Origin: Bacillota bacterium
GTDB lineage: Bacteria; Bacillota; Dethiobacteria; Dethiobacterales; Dethiobacteraceae
DNA length: 61,313 bases
Assembly (NCBI GenBank): GCA_012521405.1
Contig: JAAYMK010000001.1
Location: 1 to 61,313 of the forward strand
Reading direction: 5' to 3'
In this document: one piece after another, positions 49,792-61,313 of the stretch
Position numbering within the stretch: position 1 is the first letter of the stretch
How the letters are laid out: each line of letters starts with the position of its first letter
The notes under the pieces: model-generated
The model's input: the letters and a program-made list of their open reading frames with translations, nothing else
Database searches by the model: none
What the model was told of the DNA's origin: nothing
Translations under genes and position numbers: made by a program

Positions 49792-50541
49792 TTAAACGGC
49801 TACCCCCGGCATCTCCACCGGTGGCAATCCGGCCGGTAAAGCCTTTGCCTGCGGGTCCATCTGTAAAACACGATTTAACTGTATATTTTCACCATCCACC
49901 ACCATATCCAGCGTTAATGCCATGCGGTGGATAAAATCATTCTCCACGTCTAGCCAGAGATAAACTTGTAGTTTTTCTAAAGTTGCATTTTCCGGAAAAC
50001 CGGTTATCAAACACGTATCAGGATGCTGAATTTCCAGAAAATATGTTTGACAAAGAGCTCCATTTACCACCCTTTCTTTACCTGCTTCCACAGTCAATTC
50101 ATTTGCCGCCAAAATTTTTTCCCAAAGCTGCCAGGGTGTACAGATCAGTGCCGGTAGATCCCCTAAGCCTAAAGCATTAAGATCCTGCCACTCTTGTGCG
50201 GAAGTATTTTTAGCAAAATATTGATTATAGGCAGAAAATACTTCAAGCTCATAAGCTTCAAGTTTGCCGTAAATTTTTTCTCTGTTGACCTGCCCTTGAA
50301 AAATTATTTCATAGCCAGGCCCACTTTCTTCAATTGTCAAACCGTAATTTTCCATCTTCTTGCCGGCGGCGGCAATTTGTCCTGCTAAAGTTTCAAACAT
50401 GGTGGGTAAGGCCGGCTCTTCCTGCTCTTGGGTCTGTGGCGGCCAAAGCAAAAAACTGCCGGCAAGGATTAGCAGTACCAGGAAAAAGAACAAGTAACGT
50501 TTTTTGACTTTGCCCGTGAGCCTTACAATTGCTTGTCTCAT
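49792..50541 (-). CDS. Membrane-anchored extracytoplasmic protein, unknown
   Basis: 249 residues: a basic N-terminus and one membrane segment ('YLFFFLVLLILAGSFLLW', about 17-34), then an exported domain of about 210 residues. Strand patterns such as 'LQVYLWLDVENDFIHRMALTLDM' resemble LolA-like or sigma-E-anti-sigma outer domains that bind lipids, but this is only shape similarity. Start ATG 50541 is preferred, with AGGG 9 bases upstream; ATG 50550 is the alternative. Confidence 0.6.
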   Translation of the reverse strand: MRQAIVRLTGKVKKRYLFFFLVLLILAGSFLLWPPQTQEQEEPALPTMFETLAGQIAAAGKKMENYGLTIEESGPGYEIIFQGQVNREKIYGKLEAYELEVFSAYNQYFAKNTSAQEWQDLNALGLGDLPALICTPWQLWEKILAANELTVEAGKERVVNGALCQTYFLEIQHPDTCLITGFPENATLEKLQVYLWLDVENDFIHRMALTLDMVVDGENIQLNRVLQMDPQAKALPAGLPPVEMPGVAV

Positions 50542-50637
50542 CGCCACCATCCCTATACAAATGCTGAATTTTTTCTATGCATATGCAGGGTAAAAATATT
50601 TTAGAACTGTGTTAATTCAGAGGGATGGGCAAATGTG

Positions 50638-50671
50638 CAAAAGGTACGCCCTTTGAGACGTACCTTTTTTG
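50638..50671 (-). terminator. Terminator after surE operon
   Basis: A 9-bp stem AAAGGTACG/CGTACCTTT (50640-50648 with 50659-50667) just past the tautomerase stop on the minus strand. Confidence 0.7.
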
Positions 50672-50672
50672 T

Positions 50673-50861
50673 TTATTTATTGCTTTCTGAAAGTAATTTT
50701 CCGCCTACACTGACATTTTCCAGTTCAGCTTCCCGCAAGTATATCGTGAAAGCTTGCTCCGGGAGGCCGGTGGCTTTACTGGCTGCTTCAGTAATTGCTT
50801 TTACCATTTCTTCTTTCTTTTCCTTTGCCAATTTGGGCCCGTAGAAAAAAAATGTCGGCAT
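50673..50861 (-). CDS. 4-oxalocrotonate tautomerase family protein
   Basis: 62 residues starting Met-Pro, so that after removal of Met the N-terminal Pro can act as the catalytic base. 'YGPKLAKEKKEEMVKAITEAASKATGLP' is the family core. The physiological substrate is unknown. ATG 50861 follows AAGGAGGG. It lies last in a surE, DUF4264-like, tautomerase run. Confidence 0.85.
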   Translation of the reverse strand: MPTFFFYGPKLAKEKKEEMVKAITEAASKATGLPEQAFTIYLREAELENVSVGGKLLSESNK

Positions 50862-50878
50862 ACTCTTCCCTCCTTGCC

Positions 50879-51046
50879 TTAAATTTCATAAATGGAAAAA
50901 GTCATTTCATCATCTTTTTTGCTAACGCCAAACATTAAATTGTAACTTTTCAAGTTACGGTTTAAAAAATCTACAACTTTATAAAATTCATGATTATATT
51001 TCAGTTTTAAAGTTGCCAAAAGCTCCAGTTTTTCACGTTCTGCCAT
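50879..51046 (-). CDS. DUF4264 (YpmA-like) small protein
   Basis: 55 residues: 'ELLATLKLKYNHEFYKVVDFLNRNLKSYNLMFG' followed by 'DEMTFSIYEI'. This matches the small DUF4264/YpmA family of spore-forming Firmicutes, of unknown function. ATG 51046 follows AAAGGATG. It sits 13 bases after surE and 17 before the tautomerase gene. Confidence 0.75.
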   Translation of the reverse strand: MAEREKLELLATLKLKYNHEFYKVVDFLNRNLKSYNLMFGVSKKDDEMTFSIYEI

Positions 51047-51059
51047 TGTTTACATCCTT

Positions 51060-51824
51060 TCAAAGCTTTATCTTCCACTCTTTTAGTTCCTCTAAAAAGG
51101 CAAAATCAGTTAGGTCAGGCTGAATGGGTGTGATGGTAATTTTGCCTTCCTTTATGGCGGCCACGTCAGTATCTTCATTCTCCTCAAGATCGACCAGCTC
51201 TCCAGCCAACCAATAATATTCACGACCGCGCGGGTCTTTGCGCTTGGCAAAAGCGTTTTTATATTGCCGCACACCCAAGGGGCAAATGGCCACACCTTTA
51301 ATTTCCTCAGGTTTTAAATTAGGTACATTCACATTTAACAAAAGATCTTTTTTAGTATTGTGACGACAATGCTGTTGCGCCAGGCGCGCCACAAAATAAG
51401 CGGCATAGGTATAATCAGGGTTATGATATTCTGCCAGGCTGACGGCAATGGCAGGAATGCCCAAAATTACACCTTCAATGGCCGCGGACACTGTCCCGGA
51501 GTAAAGTACGTCAGTACCTAAATTAGCTCCGCGGTTAATGCCTGAAATAACCAAATCAGGCCTTTGTGGCAGTAAAGCTTCCACAGCCAATTTTACACAA
51601 TCGGCCGGTGTGCCATTGACCGCCCAAGCAGGCACTTCGGGCGAATGACTATAGCGCACCTTCTCGGCCCGTAAAGGACGATGCATGGTAATAGCATGAC
51701 CGGTTGCACTTTGTTCGTGATCCGGTGCCACCACATATGTTTCGGCAATTTTTTTGATTTCCTGTGTCAGTGCCTGTAAGCCTTCGGCAAAAATACCATC
51801 ATCATTAGTTAGTAAAATTCGCAT
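51060..51824 (-). CDS. surE: 5'/3'-nucleotidase SurE
   Basis: A 254-residue metal-dependent nucleoside monophosphatase. Motifs: 'ILLTNDDGIFAEGLQAL' (metal-binding NDD), 'VVAPDHEQSATGHAITMHRPL', 'VNGTPADCVKLA', 'LVISGINRGANLGTDVLYSGTVSAA' in blocks, and 'DVAAIKEGKITITPIQPDLT'. ATG 51824 has GGAGGG 6 bases upstream. First gene of the run with the DUF4264-like and tautomerase genes. Confidence 0.95.
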   Translation of the reverse strand: MRILLTNDDGIFAEGLQALTQEIKKIAETYVVAPDHEQSATGHAITMHRPLRAEKVRYSHSPEVPAWAVNGTPADCVKLAVEALLPQRPDLVISGINRGANLGTDVLYSGTVSAAIEGVILGIPAIAVSLAEYHNPDYTYAAYFVARLAQQHCRHNTKKDLLLNVNVPNLKPEEIKGVAICPLGVRQYKNAFAKRKDPRGREYYWLAGELVDLEENEDTDVAAIKEGKITITPIQPDLTDFAFLEELKEWKIKL

Positions 51825-51933
51825 TTCATCCCTCCGCTGATTCATTAATTGCAAAAGTTACGCGTCTTAAGTGTTAGAAATTCCAGTATAAAAAAAGTGC
51901 ACACTCAAAAAATATCAACAAGGAGGTGTAAAC

Positions 51934-52533
51934 ATGAAAAAGCAAAAATTTTTTGTTTTCGTGGCGCTGCTTTTGGTAGCTACTCTATTTTTAAGCAGCT
52001 GCTCATTATTCAGGCGACCGGAAGCGGAACGCCAGCCGGCACCGGAGATCAACAAAGCGCCAAATTCCCAAGTTGAACAACAAAGGTTACAACAGCAGCG
52101 GCAAGTGGTGCCGCAGGAGCAGCCGCAAGATCAACCCAGAACCAATGCCCAGCAGCTGGCCGAGCGTATTGCCGACATCGCCACGGAAGTTGACGGCGTT
52201 GACCAGTCGGTAGTGGTGGTCATCTCCAACCTGGCTCTGGTAGGCGTAACCCTGGAGCGGGAAGAAACAGCAGAGCGCGGTGAAGAGCAAATTAAAAGGG
52301 AAGTGGCACGGCGGATAGAAAAACAGGAACCCAGTATTGTTAATGCCTATGTCTCGGCTAATCCGGATATCATTAAGCAATTAAGGGATATCTCTCAAGG
52401 GATTGAACGTGGTGAACCTATCTCTTCCTTCTTTGATCAGATTACAGATGTTTTAAACCGGATGCGCGCAGAAACCGGCAACAACAATAATAATGTCAAC
52501 AAAAATAACAACAAGAACAATAACAACAGGTAA
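51934..52533 (+). CDS. YhcN/YlaJ family sporulation lipoprotein
   Basis: A 199-residue lipoprotein with lipobox LSSC (Cys23), a Gln/Pro-rich linker (about 30-70) and the YhcN/YlaJ domain 'QLAERIADIATEVDGVDQSVVVVISNLALVGVTLE', a family found in spore membranes. The last 17 residues are almost all Asn with Lys and Val, probably a repeat-slippage tail. ATG 51934 follows AAGGAGGTG. Monocistronic. Confidence 0.85.
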   Translation: MKKQKFFVFVALLLVATLFLSSCSLFRRPEAERQPAPEINKAPNSQVEQQRLQQQRQVVPQEQPQDQPRTNAQQLAERIADIATEVDGVDQSVVVVISNLALVGVTLEREETAERGEEQIKREVARRIEKQEPSIVNAYVSANPDIIKQLRDISQGIERGEPISSFFDQITDVLNRMRAETGNNNNNVNKNNNKNNNNR

Positions 52534-52544
52534 AACTTCAAGAC

Positions 52545-52577
52545 ATAAGCCTGGCAAAATTCCAGGCTTATTCATTT
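52545..52577. terminator. Bidirectional terminator
   Basis: A 10-bp stem ATAAGCCTGG/CCAGGCTTAT (52545-52554 with 52562-52571), which ends the lipoprotein gene on the plus strand and the SAM by-product operon on the minus strand. Confidence 0.8.
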
Positions 52578-53869
52578 TCCTCTACTTGCACCAAATTTAT
52601 TGCCCGTTGCTGTGCTTGCTCCATAATATTTTCTTCATCCAATGTCGTCAGCTTCCCATCCTGGCAAAGGATTTTGCCGTCCACCATTACCATTTGAATA
52701 TCGGAAGATTGTGCGGCATAAACCAGATGCGCCGCCAAATCATGATGGGGGACTAAATGGGGCTTGTTTAATTTTATTAAAATTAAATCTGCTTTCATGC
52801 CCGGAGCAATCATGCCCACATTATCCAGAAAAGCTGCCTTGGCGCTTTCTCTTGTGGCCATGGCGATGGCTTCAGTTGCTGTAATTAATGTGGGGTCCAT
52901 ACGACTACCTTTCTGTAGCAAAGCGGCCAAGCGCATTTCTTCCAACATATCCAAATTATTATTACTGGCAGCGCCGTCAGTACCTAAGCCCACGGTAACT
53001 CCACGTTTTAACAAATCCGGTATGGGGGCAATGCCGCTGCCCAACTTAAGATTACTCCCCGGATTATGAGCAACACGAACATCTTCTTCCGCCAGAATGT
53101 CCATATCTTCTTCCGTTAAATGTACACAATGAGCCGCCAAAACCGGCCTTTGTAGTAACCCGGTTTTTTGCAGCAGTTTTGTGGGAGTAACCCCGTATTC
53201 GGCCTTTATTTGCTCTACCTCATCCCGTGTTTCAGACAAATGTATATGGATAGGTACACCAAGTTCGTCCTGCAACGCCATGACTTTTTTAAGATAATCC
53301 GGGGGACATGTATACGGAGCATGGGGGCCAAGCATGGTGGTGATGCGGCCATTGGCACGGCCGTGCCAATGACGGCAGAATTGTTTACTTTCTTCAAGTC
53401 CGGATTCAGCCTCGGGACCGACTCCCACCAGGCCGCGGGAGAGCACTGCCCGAATACCTGCTTCTTCCGCTGCTTCCGCCACCTGATCCATGAAAAAATA
53501 CATGTCCACAAAAGTAGTTGTTCCGCTTTTTAGCATTTCCGCAATGGCAAGCATGGTACCCCAATAAACATCTTCTCGTTTTAACCTTGCTTCCACCGGG
53601 TAAATCTTTTTTTCCAGCCAGTACATCAGCGGCACATCGTCAGCATAGGAACGCAAAAGCGTCATGGCTGCGTGGCCATGGGCATTAACAAAACCAGGTG
53701 CCAAAAGTTTACCCTGACCATTGATGGTTTGTTGAAAATTATCTTCCCAAACTGTGGTGGGTCCCACATAAGTTATTTCACTTCCGTCAATTACCACATC
53801 AGCATGTTCAAGGACCTGATTTTCTTCATTGGCCGTAACAACAGTTACATCGCGGATTAATGTTTTCAT
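52568..53869 (-). CDS. mtaD: MTA/SAH (5'-deoxyadenosine) deaminase
   Basis: A 433-residue amidohydrolase that deaminates adenosine-type by-products of S-adenosylmethionine (methylthioadenosine, S-adenosylhomocysteine, 5'-deoxyadenosine) to their inosine forms. Motifs: 'LAPGFVNAHGHAAMTLLRSYADDVPLMYWLE' (metal His pair), 'HIHLSETRDEVEQI', 'PVLAAHCVHLTEEDMDILAEEDVRVAHNPGSNLKLGSGIAP' in blocks, and 'VGLGTDGAASNNNLDMLEEMR' (metal Asp). It is the last gene of a five-gene operon, 3 bases after the aldolase gene. The neighbours support this function over guanine or cytosine deaminase. Confidence 0.9.
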   Translation of the reverse strand: MKTLIRDVTVVTANEENQVLEHADVVIDGSEITYVGPTTVWEDNFQQTINGQGKLLAPGFVNAHGHAAMTLLRSYADDVPLMYWLEKKIYPVEARLKREDVYWGTMLAIAEMLKSGTTTFVDMYFFMDQVAEAAEEAGIRAVLSRGLVGVGPEAESGLEESKQFCRHWHGRANGRITTMLGPHAPYTCPPDYLKKVMALQDELGVPIHIHLSETRDEVEQIKAEYGVTPTKLLQKTGLLQRPVLAAHCVHLTEEDMDILAEEDVRVAHNPGSNLKLGSGIAPIPDLLKRGVTVGLGTDGAASNNNLDMLEEMRLAALLQKGSRMDPTLITATEAIAMATRESAKAAFLDNVGMIAPGMKADLILIKLNKPHLVPHHDLAAHLVYAAQSSDIQMVMVDGKILCQDGKLTTLDEENIMEQAQQRAINLVQVEENE

Positions 53870-53872
53870 AAG

Positions 53873-54523
53873 TTATTCCTCCCCGTTCTTTTTGGGACCG
53901 TAAGATGTAAGATAAAAATTGCGCAGCAAACTGACATCCTCGGCACACAAGGGTGACACGGGACCCAACATCCGGGACAAAAGGGCAACCTGTGCCGTTT
54001 TTTCAACAATTTGACATACTTTCAGCGCTTCCGGCAAAGTAGCGGCCACCCCCACCAAGCCGTGATTTGCAAGTAAAACAGCCGCTTTGTCACCTAAAGC
54101 CTGGGCGGCGTTTTCCGCCAACTGCCAAGTTCCTGCCAGGGCATAATCTGCCACTTCCACACTCCCCCCCACCACTTGCGCCATTTCTTCCGTAATGGGT
54201 GGGATGGCAGCACGCGCAACAGCAAAGGCGGTGGCATAAATGCTATGGGTATGGACAATAGCCTTGCAATCCGGCCTCTTTCTGTAAATGGCTGCATGTA
54301 AGCGCCACTCTGAAGAAGGTTTCCAGCGCCCCTGGTCTTTGCCGCTCGCCACTTCAACCCTGACTAAATCTTCCCAAGTTAACGACTGATAATCCATACC
54401 GCTGGGTGTAATCCAAAACGAATCATCCTGGCGGGCGGAAACATTTCCCCACGTGCCCAAGACTAATTGTTCTGCACACATCTTCCGCACAATTTTTATC
54501 AGTTCGTGCCTAATTTCCGACAT
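53873..54523 (-). CDS. Class II aldolase, probable 5-deoxy/methylthio-ribulose-1-P aldolase
   Basis: A 216-residue zinc aldolase of the AraD/FucA family: 'LVLGTWGNVSAR', 'ITPSGMDYQSL', 'SSEWRLHAAIYRKRPDCKAIVHTHSIYATAFA' (zinc HTH), and 'ALGDKAAVLLANHGLVGVAATL' (third His). In this operon, just after mtnA, the likely reaction is cleavage of 5-methylthioribulose-1-phosphate or 5-deoxyribulose-1-phosphate to DHAP and an aldehyde (the DHAP shunt), not dehydration as by MtnB. MtnB is related, so biochemical data would be needed to decide. ATG 54523 follows GGAG. Confidence 0.8.
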   Translation of the reverse strand: MSEIRHELIKIVRKMCAEQLVLGTWGNVSARQDDSFWITPSGMDYQSLTWEDLVRVEVASGKDQGRWKPSSEWRLHAAIYRKRPDCKAIVHTHSIYATAFAVARAAIPPITEEMAQVVGGSVEVADYALAGTWQLAENAAQALGDKAAVLLANHGLVGVAATLPEALKVCQIVEKTAQVALLSRMLGPVSPLCAEDVSLLRNFYLTSYGPKKNGEE

Positions 54524-54527
54524 TTCC

Positions 54528-55562
54528 CTACTCCGTAAAAAACTTTTTTATTGTTTCCGTATCCGGATTTTTTATAATTCCTGCTTCCGTGATAATGGCG
54601 GTAACTAAAGCAGCAGGCGTAACATCAAAGGCAGGATTATAGCACTTAATACCGGTGGGTGCAATTTGCACCCCGGCAAAATGTGTCAGTTCTTGCGCAC
54701 TACGTTCTTCAATGGGAATTTCCTGTCCGGAACTAAGCTGCAAATCAAAGGTAGATAAGGGCGCCGCCACATAAAATGGAATTTTGTGTGCCTGCGCCAG
54801 CACGGCCAAGGAATATGTCCCGATTTTATTGGCAACATCTCCATTGGCGGCAATGCGATCTGCACCCACAATCACCAAGTCAATTTCTCCCTTTTGCATC
54901 AAGAAACCGGCCATATTATCTGCAATTAAAGTTGTCGGGATTTGTTCCTGCTGCAATTCCCAGGCGGTTAGCCGGGAGCCTTGTAAGTAAGGACGCGTTT
55001 CATCAACAAACACGCTAATCTCCTTCCCTTGCGCCACGGCACTGCGTATGACACCCAAGGCGGTCCCATAACCTACCGTTGCCAGCGCCCCGGCATTACA
55101 ATGGGTCAGAATACGGGCTTTTGGCGGGATCAATTGGGCTCCGTATTGCCCAATTTTTTTATTGGTTTCCACGTCTTCGGCGGCGATTTTATCTGCTTCC
55201 GCCCATAAAAGTTCCGCCAATTGCACAGCACTTGCCGTGTTTTGCTTGCGAGCAAAATGCAGCATTCTTTCCACTGCCCACGCCAAATTGACGGCAGTAG
55301 GCCGGGTAGCCTTCAGCCCGAGGGCTGCTTCTTCCAAGCCGGCAAGCAAGCTTTGCGGCTCCAGATGCTGTAGTGCTTTGGCAGCTAAAGCCATGCCATA
55401 TGCCGCCGCAGCGCCAATGGCCGGTGCGCCGCGTACCACCATGTCTTTAATGGCAGTGGCAACATCCTGCCAGCTGGTACAAACCATATATGTTATTTCC
55501 GTAGGCAATTTACGTTGATCCAAAAGCTCAATTTTTCCTTCAGTCACGCGTATAGCCGACAT
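54528..55562 (-). CDS. mtnA: S-methyl-5-thioribose-1-phosphate isomerase
   Basis: A 344-residue aldose-ketose isomerase that converts 5-methylthioribose-1-phosphate to the ribulose form; the family also accepts 5-deoxyribose-1-phosphate. Motifs: 'MVVRGAPAIGAAAAYGMALAA', 'RPTAVNLAWAVERML', 'ILTHCNAGALATVGYGTALGVI' (catalytic Cys), 'VFVDETRPYLQGSRLTAWEL' and 'IVGADRIAANGDVANKIGTY' (catalytic Asp). ATG 55562 has AGGAGG 6 bases upstream; an upstream extension would overlap mtnP. It lies 10 bases after mtnP. Confidence 0.94.
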   Translation of the reverse strand: MSAIRVTEGKIELLDQRKLPTEITYMVCTSWQDVATAIKDMVVRGAPAIGAAAAYGMALAAKALQHLEPQSLLAGLEEAALGLKATRPTAVNLAWAVERMLHFARKQNTASAVQLAELLWAEADKIAAEDVETNKKIGQYGAQLIPPKARILTHCNAGALATVGYGTALGVIRSAVAQGKEISVFVDETRPYLQGSRLTAWELQQEQIPTTLIADNMAGFLMQKGEIDLVIVGADRIAANGDVANKIGTYSLAVLAQAHKIPFYVAAPLSTFDLQLSSGQEIPIEERSAQELTHFAGVQIAPTGIKCYNPAFDVTPAALVTAIITEAGIIKNPDTETIKKFFTE

Positions 55563-55572
55563 TACTTGCCTC

Positions 55573-56361
55573 CTAAAGTAAAATGGTGCTGCCCAATTCT
55601 TTGCAGTTGCATTCTCTTTCAGCTGCCAAAAGTTCAATGGCTGCCATCAACAAAAGCCTGACTTTCTCCACATTGCTTGCCATCACATCCAGTACTTCTT
55701 GATGCGATAATTCGTATTTTGCGATTCCGGCGGCATAATTAGTGGCCAAAGCAACTGTACTGTAACACAAACCGGCCTCCCTGGCCAGCACCACTTCCGG
55801 CACATTGGTCATGCCCACTAAATCGCCGCCCAATTGTTTGTACATGCTAATTTCTGCCGCCGTTTCAAAACGAGGCCCTTCTGTACAGACATAAACTCCG
55901 CCCTCCAGAAGTTCAAGGCCGGCCTTTGCCGCCGCCTGCGAAAGGATTTTATTTAAATGACGGCAGTAAGGATAAGTAAAATCAGTGTGAATCACTCCAG
56001 ACTCGCCGCCGTCAAAAAATGAAGCTTGGCGAGCTTTAGTAAAATCTAAAAACTGCTCCAAAAGCACCATGGAACCGGGCGGCATGTTTTCATTCAGGGT
56101 CCCAACGGCTGCAGTGGCAATAACTCTGGGCACCCCCAGTTTAACTAAAGCCGCAATATTGGCACGATAATTTATTTTATGGGGCGGTACAGAATGTCCG
56201 GCACCGTGACGGGCTAAAAAAACCACATTGGTATCTTTATATGTTCCCTTTGTCAGGTGTGCCGTGCCATAACGAGTGGTAACTTCAAGCTGCTCAAGCT
56301 CCGTCAACATTTTGGAATCATAAACGCCTGTCCCGCCGATAATTGCCAATTCAATCTTCAT
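55573..56361 (-). CDS. mtnP: MTAP-family purine nucleoside phosphorylase (probable MTI-type)
   Basis: A 262-residue phosphorylase of the methylthioadenosine phosphorylase family: 'IIGGTGVYDSKMLTELE', 'FLARHGAGHSVPPHKINYRANIAAL', 'AVGTLNENMPPGSMVLLEQFLDFTK', 'VCTEGPRFETAAEISMYK' and 'TNVPEVVLAREAGLCY'. In the base-binding loop, where adenine-specific MTAPs have TDYD, this protein reads TNYAAG with Asn208. Asn here is the 6-oxopurine type found in PNP and in methylthioinosine phosphorylase. With a deaminase in the same operon, methylthioinosine or 5'-deoxyinosine may be the real substrate. ATG 56361 follows GGAGG and overlaps the ahcY end by 11 bases. Confidence 0.88.
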   Translation of the reverse strand: MKIELAIIGGTGVYDSKMLTELEQLEVTTRYGTAHLTKGTYKDTNVVFLARHGAGHSVPPHKINYRANIAALVKLGVPRVIATAAVGTLNENMPPGSMVLLEQFLDFTKARQASFFDGGESGVIHTDFTYPYCRHLNKILSQAAAKAGLELLEGGVYVCTEGPRFETAAEISMYKQLGGDLVGMTNVPEVVLAREAGLCYSTVALATNYAAGIAKYELSHQEVLDVMASNVEKVRLLLMAAIELLAAERECNCKELGSTILL

Positions 56362-57619
56362 TGCTATCACCCTCCGGTTTCCAACTACGCAAATAACATT
56401 CTTGCGCGGTTGTTAACTGATCAATGGAAATACCTAAAGCCTTTAATTTCCGGCGGGCAACTTTTTCATCGATTGCCCGCGGGAGACGTAGTACCTCGTT
56501 TTTTAACTTGCCATAATTTTCATGTAAATAATATAGCGCTTCCACTTGTAAAGCAAAACTTAAATCCATAATTTCCGCCGGATGTCCATCGGCAGCGGCT
56601 AAATTAACCAGGCGCCCTTCAGATAACAAATAAAGCTTTTTGCCGTAAAGTTCATAGGCTTCCACATTTTTTCTTGCCGGCCTGATGGTCTTTGCCAAAT
56701 CGGCCAGTGCTTTTTTATCAATTTCCACATCAAAATGACCGGCATTACATAGAATGGCTCCGTCTTTCATACGCAGAAAATGTTCCCGGCTGAGAACCCC
56801 TTGACATCCTGTCACGGTAACAAAAATGTCACCAAGGGCAGCCGCCTCTAAAAGCGGCATCACGGCATTGCCGTCCATAACCGCTTCGACGGCTTTAATG
56901 GGGTCAACCTCGCAAACAATAACTTTTGCCCCCAAGCCCCTGGCCCGCATGGCTACTCCTTTACCACACCAGCCATAGCCCACCACAACCACCGTTTTAC
57001 CGGCAACAACCAAGTTGGTGGCGCGCATAATGCCGTCCCAGACAGATTGGCCGGTACCGTAACGATTATCAAATAAATATTTGCAGTATGCATCATTAAC
57101 TGCTATCATGGGGATTTTTAAAGCACCTTCTGCCGCCATGGCCCGCAGGCGATTTAAACCTGTAGTTGTTTCCTCCGCCCCACCACGGACCCGGCTGAGC
57201 AAGTGAGGGTAATCCGTATGCAAAAGCGTCACCAGATCACCCCCGTCATCAATAATTAAATGGGGCTCGCACTGTAGCGTTTTATGTAAATGGTCTTCAT
57301 ATTCTTTGTTTGTAGCGTCATGCCAGGCATGGACAGTAATACCGTCCTCCACCAACGCGGCAGCCACATCATCCTGCGTGGAAAGCGGGTTGCTGCCTGT
57401 AATGGTAACTTCAGCTCCGCTTTCCTGTAAAACTTTAGCCATATAAGCCGTTTTTGCTTCCAGATGCAAACATATGGCAATTCTCAAACCGGCAAAAGGT
57501 TTGGTGGCGCCAAATTCTTTAGCCAATTCACGCAAAACCGGCATATGCTCTCGCACCCAGTTAATTTTCAGTTTACCCGCCGGCGCCAAAGTAATATCAC
57601 GGATTGTACTGGTACTCAC
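56351..57619 (-). CDS. ahcY: Adenosylhomocysteinase family enzyme (SAH or S-inosylhomocysteine hydrolase)
   Basis: A 422-residue NAD-dependent hydrolase, of the shorter archaeal/Thermotoga-like type without the insert of eukaryotic forms. Motifs: 'LRIAICLHLEAKTAYMAKVL', 'DDGGDLVTLLH', 'TTTGLNRLRAMAAEGALKIPMIAVNDAYCKYLFDNRYGTGQSVWDGIMRATN' in blocks, 'VVVVGYGWCGKGVAMRARGLGAKVIVCEVDP' (NAD loop) and 'NAGHFDVEID'. In the adenine-contact segment the usual T-x-E/Q is E54-x-K56, so the group that reads the purine 6-amino position is changed. Start GTG 57619 with AAGGAGG. First gene of the five-gene operon. Confidence 0.93.
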   Translation of the reverse strand: MSTSTIRDITLAPAGKLKINWVREHMPVLRELAKEFGATKPFAGLRIAICLHLEAKTAYMAKVLQESGAEVTITGSNPLSTQDDVAAALVEDGITVHAWHDATNKEYEDHLHKTLQCEPHLIIDDGGDLVTLLHTDYPHLLSRVRGGAEETTTGLNRLRAMAAEGALKIPMIAVNDAYCKYLFDNRYGTGQSVWDGIMRATNLVVAGKTVVVVGYGWCGKGVAMRARGLGAKVIVCEVDPIKAVEAVMDGNAVMPLLEAAALGDIFVTVTGCQGVLSREHFLRMKDGAILCNAGHFDVEIDKKALADLAKTIRPARKNVEAYELYGKKLYLLSEGRLVNLAAADGHPAEIMDLSFALQVEALYYLHENYGKLKNEVLRLPRAIDEKVARRKLKALGISIDQLTTAQECYLRSWKPEGDSNED

Positions 57620-57687
57620 GCAGTAGTTCCTCCTTAATTCATTTACGAAACATAATTTCTTCGTCAGGATGCTTTTTCCTGCCGCCT

Positions 57688-58680
57688 TTATTTTTCTCCC
57701 TTACATTGCTCCTTTTCCTCCTGCTCCTGATAAAGCTTACGGGCACGATAATAACACTCTAAAGCACGTCTTGTTTCCCCCAATTCTTCATATAAAAGTC
57801 CCAATTCAAAAGCAACAAAGGGTTCCTGTGGAGCCAAGTAAGCTGCTTTTAACAAATTTACCAAAGCTTCCTGGTCGTTTTTTAATTTGCGATAACCTTT
57901 TCCCAGGTAAAAATAAACTTCCCAATCACGGGGAAATTTTTCTTTCACCTGTTCAAAAGCTCCCACACTTTGCTCATATAGCTGTAAATTATAACAAACC
58001 GCCCCTAAATTAAAGAGAGCAACTGCAAAATCCGGATCCAATTCTAAAACCTTGGAAAACTCTTTAAAGGCCAATTCATATTCTTCTTGATCCGCATAGA
58101 TATTACCAAGGGTATTATGGACGATGGCCCCGGTTTGCGGATCATCTGTTAAAGCTTGCACTAAACGTAGCTCGCGCATAGCTTCATCTACCAGTCCTCG
58201 TTCTGCATAAGCTACGCCTAAACATAAATGTGCCAGCAGTAAATCCGGTTCCTGCCGCACAACTTGCTGAAATTCTTGGATGGCTTCATCCAGCATGGCC
58301 AGTTCCATAAAGCCCAGTCCGCGGCGAAAGGAGCGAATACAAGCTTCATTATCTTCCTTAAAGAAAACCGGTTTAATATCCCTTTTGACAAGCTCCTCCT
58401 GCGGCTGTTGCGCCTCTGTCTCCAGCAAATCCTGCTCAAAAACTTGTAAAAAAGATTCCGGCACTTCATCGGGCAGGGAAAAATTATACTTATCCTGCAT
58501 TTCATTAATGCGTTCTTCAAATCGCAACCAATATTCTACGTAACGATCCATCCGCCGGCGCAATTCTAAAAGCCTTTCATAGCATTTTTGTCTTTTTTCC
58601 TGATTATCTCCTACTTCACGTAATTCTTTTTCCACACAATCAAGAGCATGAAAGATTTGCATAAATTCGTTTTCTTTCAT
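57688..58680 (-). CDS. Tetratricopeptide-repeat protein
   Basis: 330 residues: an acidic coiled N-terminal third (about 1-110) followed by about six TPR units from residue 120 on ('AMLDEAIQEFQQVVRQEPDLLLAHLCLGVAYAERG', 'YELAFKEFSKVLELDPDFAVALFNLGAVCYNL', and so on). There is no signal peptide, so it is a probable cytoplasmic scaffold. ATG 58680 follows AGGAGG. It lies 68 bases upstream of ahcY on the same strand without a clear terminator between them, so read-through is possible. Confidence 0.85.
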   Translation of the reverse strand: MKENEFMQIFHALDCVEKELREVGDNQEKRQKCYERLLELRRRMDRYVEYWLRFEERINEMQDKYNFSLPDEVPESFLQVFEQDLLETEAQQPQEELVKRDIKPVFFKEDNEACIRSFRRGLGFMELAMLDEAIQEFQQVVRQEPDLLLAHLCLGVAYAERGLVDEAMRELRLVQALTDDPQTGAIVHNTLGNIYADQEEYELAFKEFSKVLELDPDFAVALFNLGAVCYNLQLYEQSVGAFEQVKEKFPRDWEVYFYLGKGYRKLKNDQEALVNLLKAAYLAPQEPFVAFELGLLYEELGETRRALECYYRARKLYQEQEEKEQCKGEK

Positions 58681-58772
58681 CTTAAACTATTCCTCCTTTA
58701 ACCGATCTCCTGTCTGTATCTTTGTACAGTTCGGAGGAAAAACATACATGCGAAAAAAATGCAACAAAAAGG

Positions 58773-58801
58773 TTGACTTTAAAAAATAAATATGTTAGAC
58801 T
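58773..58801 (+). promoter_or_regulatory. Promoter of tRNA-Thr
   Basis: TTGACT (58773-58778), 17 bases and TAGACT (58796-58801), about 22 bases before the tRNA. Confidence 0.65.
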
Positions 58802-58822
58802 ATAACTTGCGTTGACAAAGTT

Positions 58823-58898
58823 GCCGACGTAGCTCAACTGGTAGAGCAGCTGACTTGTAATCAGCAGGTTGCGGGTTCGAGTCCCATCACCAGCTCCA
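58823..58898 (+). tRNA. tRNA-Thr (TGT anticodon), mispaired acceptor stem
   Basis: D-arm, anticodon stem GCTGA/TCAGC with loop CTTGTAA (anticodon TGT), T-loop TTCGAGT and encoded CCA (58896-58898) are clear. However, the 5' acceptor strand GCCGACG (58823-58829) faces CACCAGC (58888-58894), giving three mismatches in seven, and the T-stem has one C-A mismatch. The 5' strand would pair perfectly with CGTCGGC. The 3' end looks as if it came from another tRNA-Thr gene. The gene may be non-functional or a join artefact. Confidence 0.8.
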
Positions 58899-58899
58899 T

Positions 58900-58940
58900 A
58901 AAAAGTACCCTGAGTCATTAGATTCAGGGTACTTTTTATT
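58900..58940 (+). terminator. Terminator after tRNA-Thr
   Basis: A 14-bp perfect stem (58900-58913 with 58924-58937) ending in TTTTT, directly behind the CCA end. Confidence 0.92.
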
Positions 58941-59205
58941 TTGCCCAATTATATATTGTCTAGCTTAGGCTGATAGTTGATTTCCCCTTCATTTTTAGCA
59001 AATCTAGTCTTAACTTGTCCTAATAGAATGATATAGCTAATAAAAACAATAATAGATACATATCTAAGAATAAATACTTGACAATCATCTAAGTAATGTG
59101 CTAGGGTTAAATTGTTAGATGGCGGTCTATTATATATTTAGCAGGTAACCATCTAATATACACTATTACTAGGGCTAATATAAAGAGCAAGGGGGAGAAT
59201 CAGGC
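58941..59205. other. Intergenic region ahead of the ArsR-type gene
   Basis: AT-rich. A TTGACA at about 59078 has no good -10 at the usual distance. The inverted repeat at 59115-59156 is the most notable structure, and CATCTAA also occurs once upstream near 59088. No gene is seen. Confidence 0.5.
59115..59156. promoter_or_regulatory. Inverted repeat, candidate ArsR-type operator
   Basis: TTAGATGG (59115-59122) and CCATCTAA (59149-59156) form an 8-bp perfect inverted repeat with 26 AT-rich bases between, 50 bases ahead of a gene that encodes an ArsR-type DNA-binding domain. Operator function is inferred from position only. Confidence 0.45.
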
Positions 59206-60402
59206 ATGAAACTAGAGGAACGGATCATTATAAGAGAAAAACCCAATTTCTACTTAGAGGCAGTCAACCTATTAGAGGAATATTTTATTAACAAGGAGCA
59301 AAAGCAGGGCCAAGAGGCCTGGGAGGAGGCCTGGCAAAGGAAGTCATTGGTAGACAATCCAGATAGCTTTTCCCTTGCCAGCTTAGAAATTGACGCAAGG
59401 TTTTCTGACGTCTATAACTACTATGCTAACTGCAAGAGGGATCTAATAAGGGTAGCTGGCAATCTAGGAGTGCTAGGACCCTACTTTGCCCTTAGGGTAG
59501 TTGACCATGAAAAGGACATGAGTGGCTTTTTAAAGAGGGCCCTTATTATGAATGATCTTGAGTCGGCAAAGCAATTATCCAGGGACGGTTTTGTGACCTC
59601 CTGCCTGGCAGGTCTCTATGATTTGGCTGGCCTAGGTGCTGACTATGATTTAGAAGCTCCCGAATCACAGGACTGGTGTGATAAGGTTACCCATCCTGAC
59701 TTTGATATGGGAGAGCTTTTTAAGGTTATTGGACAAATGCCCATCTCCGATAGTGATCAGCTCCTTCTTTTGCGTTACTTTCAGGACATTGATACCTATT
59801 ATGACCTGATCAAAAACTGCCTATTAGAGCTAGAGCAGATCTGCAGCAAGCATTACCCCTTGGTCAAGGCCAGGTATGAAGAAAAAATTAAACAGCTAAA
59901 CAGTGAGGGGGGCCTTGATTTTTACCTAGACCTGTTTGGCCAGCTGCTCATAAGTGCAGATGGCTTTCGTAGCGGTGACAAGGTCTATATGGTACTTGGC
60001 ATTGTCTCCTATGGCTCCATGTTAATCCGCTTTTCAGCCTGGAGACGGTTAAGGCTCCTAATGGGAGTAGGACTTTTATTCAGTGAGCTCAACCAACTAA
60101 AAGACAGGAGCAAATACCGGGACAAGATGGCTAAAAAGCAGCTTAAGGCCATATCTGATCCAACCCGCTATGAGATCATCCGCCAGCTGTCCATAAGGCC
60201 CCAGTATGTTCAAGAGTTAGCTGATGCCTTGGGCCTTACTGCCGCAACCCTTTCCCACCACCTGGCCATACTCCAGCAGGCCATGTTAGTTGGAGTCAGG
60301 ATTGAGGGAAGGCGGTCCTATTACTCTATCAACGAGAAGGAGCTAAAGCAGCTAGCTGAGGTCCTAGAAAATATGGCAAGTAGAAGTAGGACGGAGGAAT
60401 AA
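59206..60402 (+). CDS. ArsR-type winged-helix regulator with large N-terminal domain
   Basis: A 398-residue protein. Residues about 310-395 are an ArsR/SmtB-like winged helix ('KQLKAISDPTRYEIIRQLS', 'YVQELADALGLTAATLSHHLAILQQAMLV', 'EGRRSYYSI'). The N-terminal 300 residues are helical, acidic and unfamiliar; no metal-site cysteines are visible, so the ligand is unlikely to be a classic metal. It lies 4 bases ahead of an ABC exporter, which it probably controls. Codon use differs sharply from genes to the left: AGG is about half of the Arg codons, and CTA, AAG and GAG are common. ATG 59206 follows GGGGGAG. Confidence 0.8.
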   Translation: MKLEERIIIREKPNFYLEAVNLLEEYFINKEQKQGQEAWEEAWQRKSLVDNPDSFSLASLEIDARFSDVYNYYANCKRDLIRVAGNLGVLGPYFALRVVDHEKDMSGFLKRALIMNDLESAKQLSRDGFVTSCLAGLYDLAGLGADYDLEAPESQDWCDKVTHPDFDMGELFKVIGQMPISDSDQLLLLRYFQDIDTYYDLIKNCLLELEQICSKHYPLVKARYEEKIKQLNSEGGLDFYLDLFGQLLISADGFRSGDKVYMVLGIVSYGSMLIRFSAWRRLRLLMGVGLLFSELNQLKDRSKYRDKMAKKQLKAISDPTRYEIIRQLSIRPQYVQELADALGLTAATLSHHLAILQQAMLVGVRIEGRRSYYSINEKELKQLAEVLENMASRSRTEE

Positions 60403-60406
60403 AATA

Positions 60407-61313
60407 GTGCAGACACAGGTAAATAGCAGCAAGGAAACTGGATTTCGCAAAAATTTAGCCATAGAGCTATTAGATAAGGAGACCCGAAAAAAGTACTTAC
60501 ACACAGAAAAGCATTCTATGTTAGATCTTTTAAAAGATATGTACAGGCCTGTACTTAAAGATGGGGGCCTGGTGGCCGCCTCTATTGGATATGCAATCTT
60601 TAGTGGCCTTTTACCCCTGCTTTCAGTATTAATTGTACATATACTGGTTGGCTTACTGACTGAAGCAAATGTAGAGGCTAGTAGGCTAATTATGGTGGCA
60701 GGCCTTTATGCAGCCCTCTTTATTTTATGTACATCTGTATCTAGCCAGCTGAAGGGGCGAAACTCAACAAAATTTATGCTCCTTAGATTAAAGGCACTAA
60801 ACAAAATGCTAGATAAGCACATGACCATGGATTATGGCTTATATGAAAACCCCTCCTTTTTAGATGACCTGGGTAACTGGAGCCGTAGCCTAGCAAGTAA
60901 TAACACAGGACTTGAGGGGTCATACCATAAAATCTTTGAACTGGGTGGGACCTTTATTTCACTTATCCTACTAGGTGGCCTTTTATTTATGGTCAGCCCA
61001 CTTATAGCACTTGTAGCTATTGTATTTGTAATAGTTTTTTACTTGGCCCAAAGAAATATTACCAGCTACAAGCATAGGCGCAGGGAAGAGCTTCAAAGGG
61101 TTGGCAGGCGGTCGGGCAAGTTTGCTAGAAAGGCTTCGGACTTTCGCTATGGAAAGGATATGCGGCTATTTAGGATGGAGGACCGATTCCAAAGGGCATT
61201 TAAGCCCCTTCTCTTAGCTTATGAAAAACTTTACAAGGCCTTTACCATGCGTGAGCTACAATTGTCCTTTTTAGAGTCTGCTGCCCTAGTTTTAATTGAT
61301 ATTGTTAGTTTTA
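60407..61313 (+). CDS. ABC exporter membrane domain, cut by window end
   Basis: The first 302 residues of an ABC transporter. After a charged N-terminal 45 residues come four or more membrane segments ('GYAIFSGLLPLLSVLIVHILVGLL', 'LIMVAGLYAALFILCTSV', 'LGGTFISLILLGGLLFMVSPLIALVAIVFVIVFYLAQ') with the exporter loops 'MTMDYGLYENPSFLDDL' and 'KDMRLFRMEDRFQRAF'. The ATPase domain would lie beyond the window. Peptide or drug exporters have this layout. GTG 60407 has GGAGG 9 bases upstream. Same foreign-looking codon use as the ArsR-type gene. Confidence 0.8.
   Translation, partial: MQTQVNSSKETGFRKNLAIELLDKETRKKYLHTEKHSMLDLLKDMYRPVLKDGGLVAASIGYAIFSGLLPLLSVLIVHILVGLLTEANVEASRLIMVAGLYAALFILCTSVSSQLKGRNSTKFMLLRLKALNKMLDKHMTMDYGLYENPSFLDDLGNWSRSLASNNTGLEGSYHKIFELGGTFISLILLGGLLFMVSPLIALVAIVFVIVFYLAQRNITSYKHRRREELQRVGRRSGKFARKASDFRYGKDMRLFRMEDRFQRAFKPLLLAYEKLYKAFTMRELQLSFLESAALVLIDIVSF

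Follow-up and report, generated by a model that had tools for sequence, protein, structure and literature searches.

The tRNA-Thr junction

The question raised by this locus is whether the DNA on the two sides of its tRNA-Thr(TGT) gene belongs to a single chromosome. The window, by which we mean the whole stretch of 61,313 nucleotides that was analysed, is contig C90 of the genome G000, a 165-contig draft that behaves as a metagenome bin, is 97% complete and has a contamination estimate of 0.39%. An earlier note made from the letters of the window had called the gene chimeric and had offered two explanations, namely site-specific integration of an element at the 3' end of the tRNA, or a join between contigs within conserved tRNA sequence. 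The second of these is almost certainly right: C90 is a misassembly, in which the last ~2.4 kb come from a UBA3906-related bacterium and were joined to the host chromosome inside a tRNA-Thr stretch that the two organisms share. The features on which the argument depends are collected in Table 1.

Table 1. Features on either side of the join, with positions in the window.
Feature	Position	Strand	Basis
Final native gene left of the join, encoding a host TPR-repeat protein	57688-58680	-	Pfam TPR hits; relatives
Host promoter and leader of tRNA-Thr	58770-58822	+	Aligns with the tRNA-Thr leaders of G001 and of C101 in the same bin
Chimeric tRNA-Thr(TGT), 5' part host and 3' end donor	58823-58898	+	ARAGORN; 3/7 acceptor mismatches; arms matched to two lineages
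Likeliest stretch for the join, 46 nt identical in host C101 and UBA3906-neighbourhood tRNAs	58843-58888	+	Longest common stretches
Foreign tail, UBA3906-like chromosome, not of the host genome	58889-61313	+	UBA3906 match; codon use; no continuation in the bin
Terminator-like hairpin (Rho-independent) of the donor tRNA transcript	58899-58945	+	-26.3 kcal/mol, z -9.0
Donor gene for a 398 aa protein whose C-terminal part is an ArsR-type helix-turn-helix (HTH)	59206-60402	+	PF01022
ABC exporter gene of the donor, truncated where the contig stops	60407-61313	+	Full copy in L006

The two arms of the tRNA

The acceptor stem of the tRNA is made of arms of two different types. On the 5' side, GCCGACG is of the type found in the host lineage, as seen in C101 (a further contig of this bin) and in host relatives, and the 3' arm, CACCAGC, is that of another tRNA-Thr, GCTGGTG...CACCAGC, as found in the tRNAs of the UBA3906 neighbourhood. 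Four of the seven acceptor pairs can form, with C3-A70, A5-C68 and C6-A67 failing, and in all 14 of the other host-lineage tRNA-Thr(TGT) genes examined (the copy on C101 and those of 13 other genomes) the number of acceptor mismatches is zero. The z-score of the RNA fold against shuffled sequences is 0.04 for the gene in the window, -2.91 for the intact gene on C101, and -3.10 for a donor-type gene. The T-stem has a single non-pair, C50-A64, which the earlier note had also counted; this mismatch is present but was rejected as a sign of chimerism, since intact tRNAs of either parent have the same GCGGG/CCCAT T-arm.

The 3' end is a good marker of its origin. Allowing up to one mismatch, the 31-mer GTTGCGGGTTCGAGTCCCATCACCAGCTCCA is found in none of 99 host relatives and in 24 of the 61 genomes around UBA3906, and the copies examined end fully paired tRNAs, either GCTGGTG...CACCAGC or GCTGGCG...CGCCAGC. 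The proposal that the 3' end fits a tRNA-Thr beginning with GCTGGTG is thus borne out, as is the earlier count of three failed acceptor pairs. It had also been remarked that GTTGCGGGTTCGAGTCC recurs in the tRNA-Trp at 48 kb, and it does, but this is ordinary.

Compared with the intact copy on C101, the tRNA in the window is identical over bases 17-66 and diverges at 58889-58891, the switch in identity lying between 58888 and 58889. The earlier note had placed this switch some 14 bases too early. The longest stretch common to the window and C101 is 58839-58888 (50 nt), and the tRNAs at L102 and L106 match the window at every base from 21 to 76 (58843-58898). The two parents therefore have approximately 58843-58888 in common. 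Such a shared run of 46 nt is what a k-mer join needs. Most of the tRNA-Thr genes from the UBA3906 neighbourhood share 34-50 nt with the 5' part of the window gene, and a few share 18-24.

These matches bear on the suggestion that the gene is a native, decaying pseudogene, with the DNA to its right also native to the host species. The intact gene on C101 would indeed leave a second copy free to decay. However, the altered bases reproduce exactly the perfectly paired arm of another lineage, with exact matches of 44-56 nt to the tRNAs of that lineage, and the DNA to the right has foreign codon use and is 99.6% identical to another metagenome-assembled genome (MAG); decay in place is accordingly given almost no weight.

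It is worth adding that G001, which belongs to the same genus as the host, has a second tRNA-Thr(TGT) of the form GCTGGTG...CACCAGC at the tip of its contig C107 (L039, positions 22-97), in a Thr-Tyr-Gly-Cys-Leu cluster for which no counterpart was found in G000. It was considered as a donor and rejected because its 3' half differs from that of the window.

The left side and its true continuation

Up to the tRNA, the window is native host chromosome. Contig C38 of G001 aligns colinearly with 50027-58899, at 82% identity over 8.9 kb, and the alignment ends at the end of the tRNA. The TPR-repeat protein is 87% identical in amino acid sequence to that of G001, and 58-74% identical to those of other members of the family. 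Among those relatives whose contigs extend past this gene, it is followed by tRNA genes for Thr, Tyr, (Gln), Lys and Leu, in that order, and the arrangement is broken only in the window.

The expected neighbours are found on C101, where tRNAs for Tyr, Gln, Lys and Leu come after an intact tRNA-Thr (GCCGACG...CGTCGGC). The genes past this cluster are syntenic with those that follow it in three relatives (G010, G003 and G004), and the body of C101 is 81% identical to G001, the corresponding figure for C90 being 82%. Because it carries both the tRNA cluster of the relatives and their syntenic downstream genes, C101 is, to judge by gene order, the true host continuation to the right of C90. An end-to-end overlap between C101 and C90 was sought and there is none, the tip of C101 being a repeat that C138 and C46 also carry at their tips. 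The link between the two contigs is one of synteny and not of overlap, because their leaders differ at about 11 bases and the first 110 bases of C101 are repeat.

Contigs end within a few hundred bases of tRNA-Thr in L017, L018, L021, L025, L028, L029 and L030, as well as in other relatives. This is consistent with the tRNA cluster being a recurrent break point for assembly in many members of the family.

The right side

The right end of the window has a close match elsewhere. Positions 59317-61313 match DGFG01000105.1 over 1997 bp at 99.6% identity. DGFG01000105.1 is an ordinary piece of chromosome, 18.9 kb long, from the MAG of Firmicutes bacterium UBA3906, and its content includes an arginine biosynthesis cluster, an xylFGH-like sugar ABC transporter and ABC exporters. 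This contig starts inside the HTH gene, and the segment 58889-59316 is assigned to the tail from its continuity and from the 3' arm of the tRNA rather than from a direct match. The UBA3906 MAG was searched for an intact donor tRNA-Thr and for 58889-59316, and contains neither, this part not being assembled there. The intact donor-type tRNA was found only in relatives of UBA3906 (G061 and others), and these neighbours in the lineage were used in its place. In G061 the donor-type tRNA-Thr is likewise followed by a similar terminator-like hairpin.

The HTH protein points in the same direction. Its full-length relatives (47-49%) are found only in G061, G062 and G064, all around UBA3906, and the host relatives match it in the HTH part alone. 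No tRNA was found within 1.5 kb upstream of the HTH gene in these three genomes.

Codon use changes across the join, as had been noticed previously from the AGG codon, which was said to make up about half of Arg codons, and from the rise in CTA, AAG and GAG. The shift is real: AGG accounts for 0.54 of the Arg codons between 59206 and 60399 and for 0.38 of those between 60407 and 61311, whereas five host genes to the left have 0.09-0.27, and CTA, AAG, GAG and ATA are also higher to the right of the join. This AGG- and CTA-rich usage is shared by the genes checked on the donor contig, some of which are distant from the junction. A codon log-likelihood ratio (leave-one-out) changes sign at the join, with the two right-hand genes donor-like by +106 and +55 bits and three left-hand genes at -112 to -155 bits.

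Integration, transfer or misassembly

A tRNA whose identity switches in its 3' half, with sequence of foreign codon use beyond it, is also what would be seen if the 3' end of tRNA-Thr had been the target of site-specific integration by a genomic island or phage that supplied its own copy of that end. The 3' half of a tRNA is the usual attachment site, and islands and prophages integrated at tRNA genes resemble the window in having the breakpoint there and foreign sequence downstream. Unlike them, the window has no recognisable integrase or att repeat. An integrase was looked for in the open reading frames of 59-61.3 kb and of the 18.9 kb donor contig, nine proteins of the donor contig and two of the window being scanned against Pfam and the remaining frames judged from their translations, and none was recognised. 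Nor is there a second copy of the tRNA 3' end, as no 14-mer of the tRNA occurs in the right end of the window or in the donor contig. Both of these had been named in the earlier note as signs to look for. Integration would moreover restore a working tRNA, whereas here three of seven acceptor pairs are lost; C101 has a whole tRNA-Thr with its leader and not a displaced 3' fragment; and the donor contig is ordinary chromosome. No viral contig has an exact match to the junction, and among the hits listed from phage and plasmid collections the best cover the tRNA only. A far junction is also lacking: the continuation of the donor sequence was sought in the rest of the G000 bin and there is none, the donor sequence stopping with the contig. 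The explanation by integration is contradicted by these findings, and we regard it as scarcely credible.

A true and recent horizontal transfer, in which chromosomal DNA of UBA3906 entered the host species by homologous recombination at tRNA-Thr genes in part of the population, would be compatible with the identity of 99.6%. A MAG of the genus UBA3906 (order Caldicoprobacterales, Clostridia) has been reported from a biogas plant (PMC10608942), a source that would also suit such a transfer; going by its name, that MAG would be the same organism as the donor match. Against this, the contig stops within donor sequence, and the far junction that a transfer needs is absent from a bin that is 97% complete. 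Its product would be a poorly paired tRNA, and 46 nt is short for homologous recombination. We consider such a transfer very improbable, both as an event and as a variant carried by part of the host population.

Points against the reading as a misassembly are that the intact donor-type tRNA comes from relatives of UBA3906, that no tRNA lies within 1.5 kb of the HTH gene in those relatives that have it, and that C90 and C101 are linked by synteny. The intact tRNA and its proper neighbours are on C101, and the right end is nearly identical to the MAG of an unrelated organism, so that the second explanation of the earlier note is supported. Both sides of the window occur separately, the left in C38 of G001 and the right in the UBA3906 contig. 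Assemblers based on de Bruijn graphs may return paths that are absent from real genomes (PMC8172020), and the join was presumably made by a k-mer assembler and would exist in no cell. Host and donor would each carry a tRNA-Thr(TGT), and the two genes would agree exactly for several tens of bases in their middle part. This shared stretch would present the assembler with several entries and exits, of which the wrong ones could be paired, and the path would then leave the host chromosome and enter the donor genome inside the tRNA. The resulting 61 kb contig would be binned by its native part of 58.8 kb, leaving the donor piece isolated in the bin. That donor sequence is nowhere else in the bin is as expected if binning followed the native part.

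In its general form the case is like the inter-genome chimeric contigs known from metagenomes, in which the join lies in sequence conserved between unrelated genomes and foreign DNA occupies one end of a contig that is clean elsewhere. There is no essential difference, apart from the fact that the conserved stretch is here a tRNA gene, with a diagnostic mismatched acceptor stem. The underlying biology is therefore ordinary, and the consequences are practical ones: C90 should be cut at approximately 58,843-58,888 and its right end discarded. Otherwise the last 2.4 kb, with an HTH regulator and an ABC exporter, could be credited to the host species by mistake, or misread as a recent gene transfer. 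A low contamination estimate such as the 0.39% of this bin does not exclude joins between genomes, and a tRNA whose acceptor arms come from two lineages is a cheap flag for them in draft bins.

Other observations

The HTH protein and two ABC exporters form a donor operon (59206-61313 together with L006 1-4794). The large N-terminal part of the 398 aa protein has no Pfam match. The exporter that is cut by the end of the window is complete in L006 (1091-2995) and encodes 634 aa, with a membrane domain and an ATPase domain (Pfam ABC_tran).

The tip of C101 (L046 9354-9531, minus strand) carries the 110-base repeat, which is possibly the end of a mobile element and is ~72% like its copies on the ends of C138 and C46. 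The tRNA-Thr leader of C101 is 100% identical to that of G001 over 82 bases, and leader and tRNA-Thr together are identical over ~160 bases, in genomes that differ by ~18% elsewhere. The tip of C101 may reflect a mixture with a related strain, or this tRNA may have been the site of a further erroneous join. Neither possibility alters the conclusion reached for the window.
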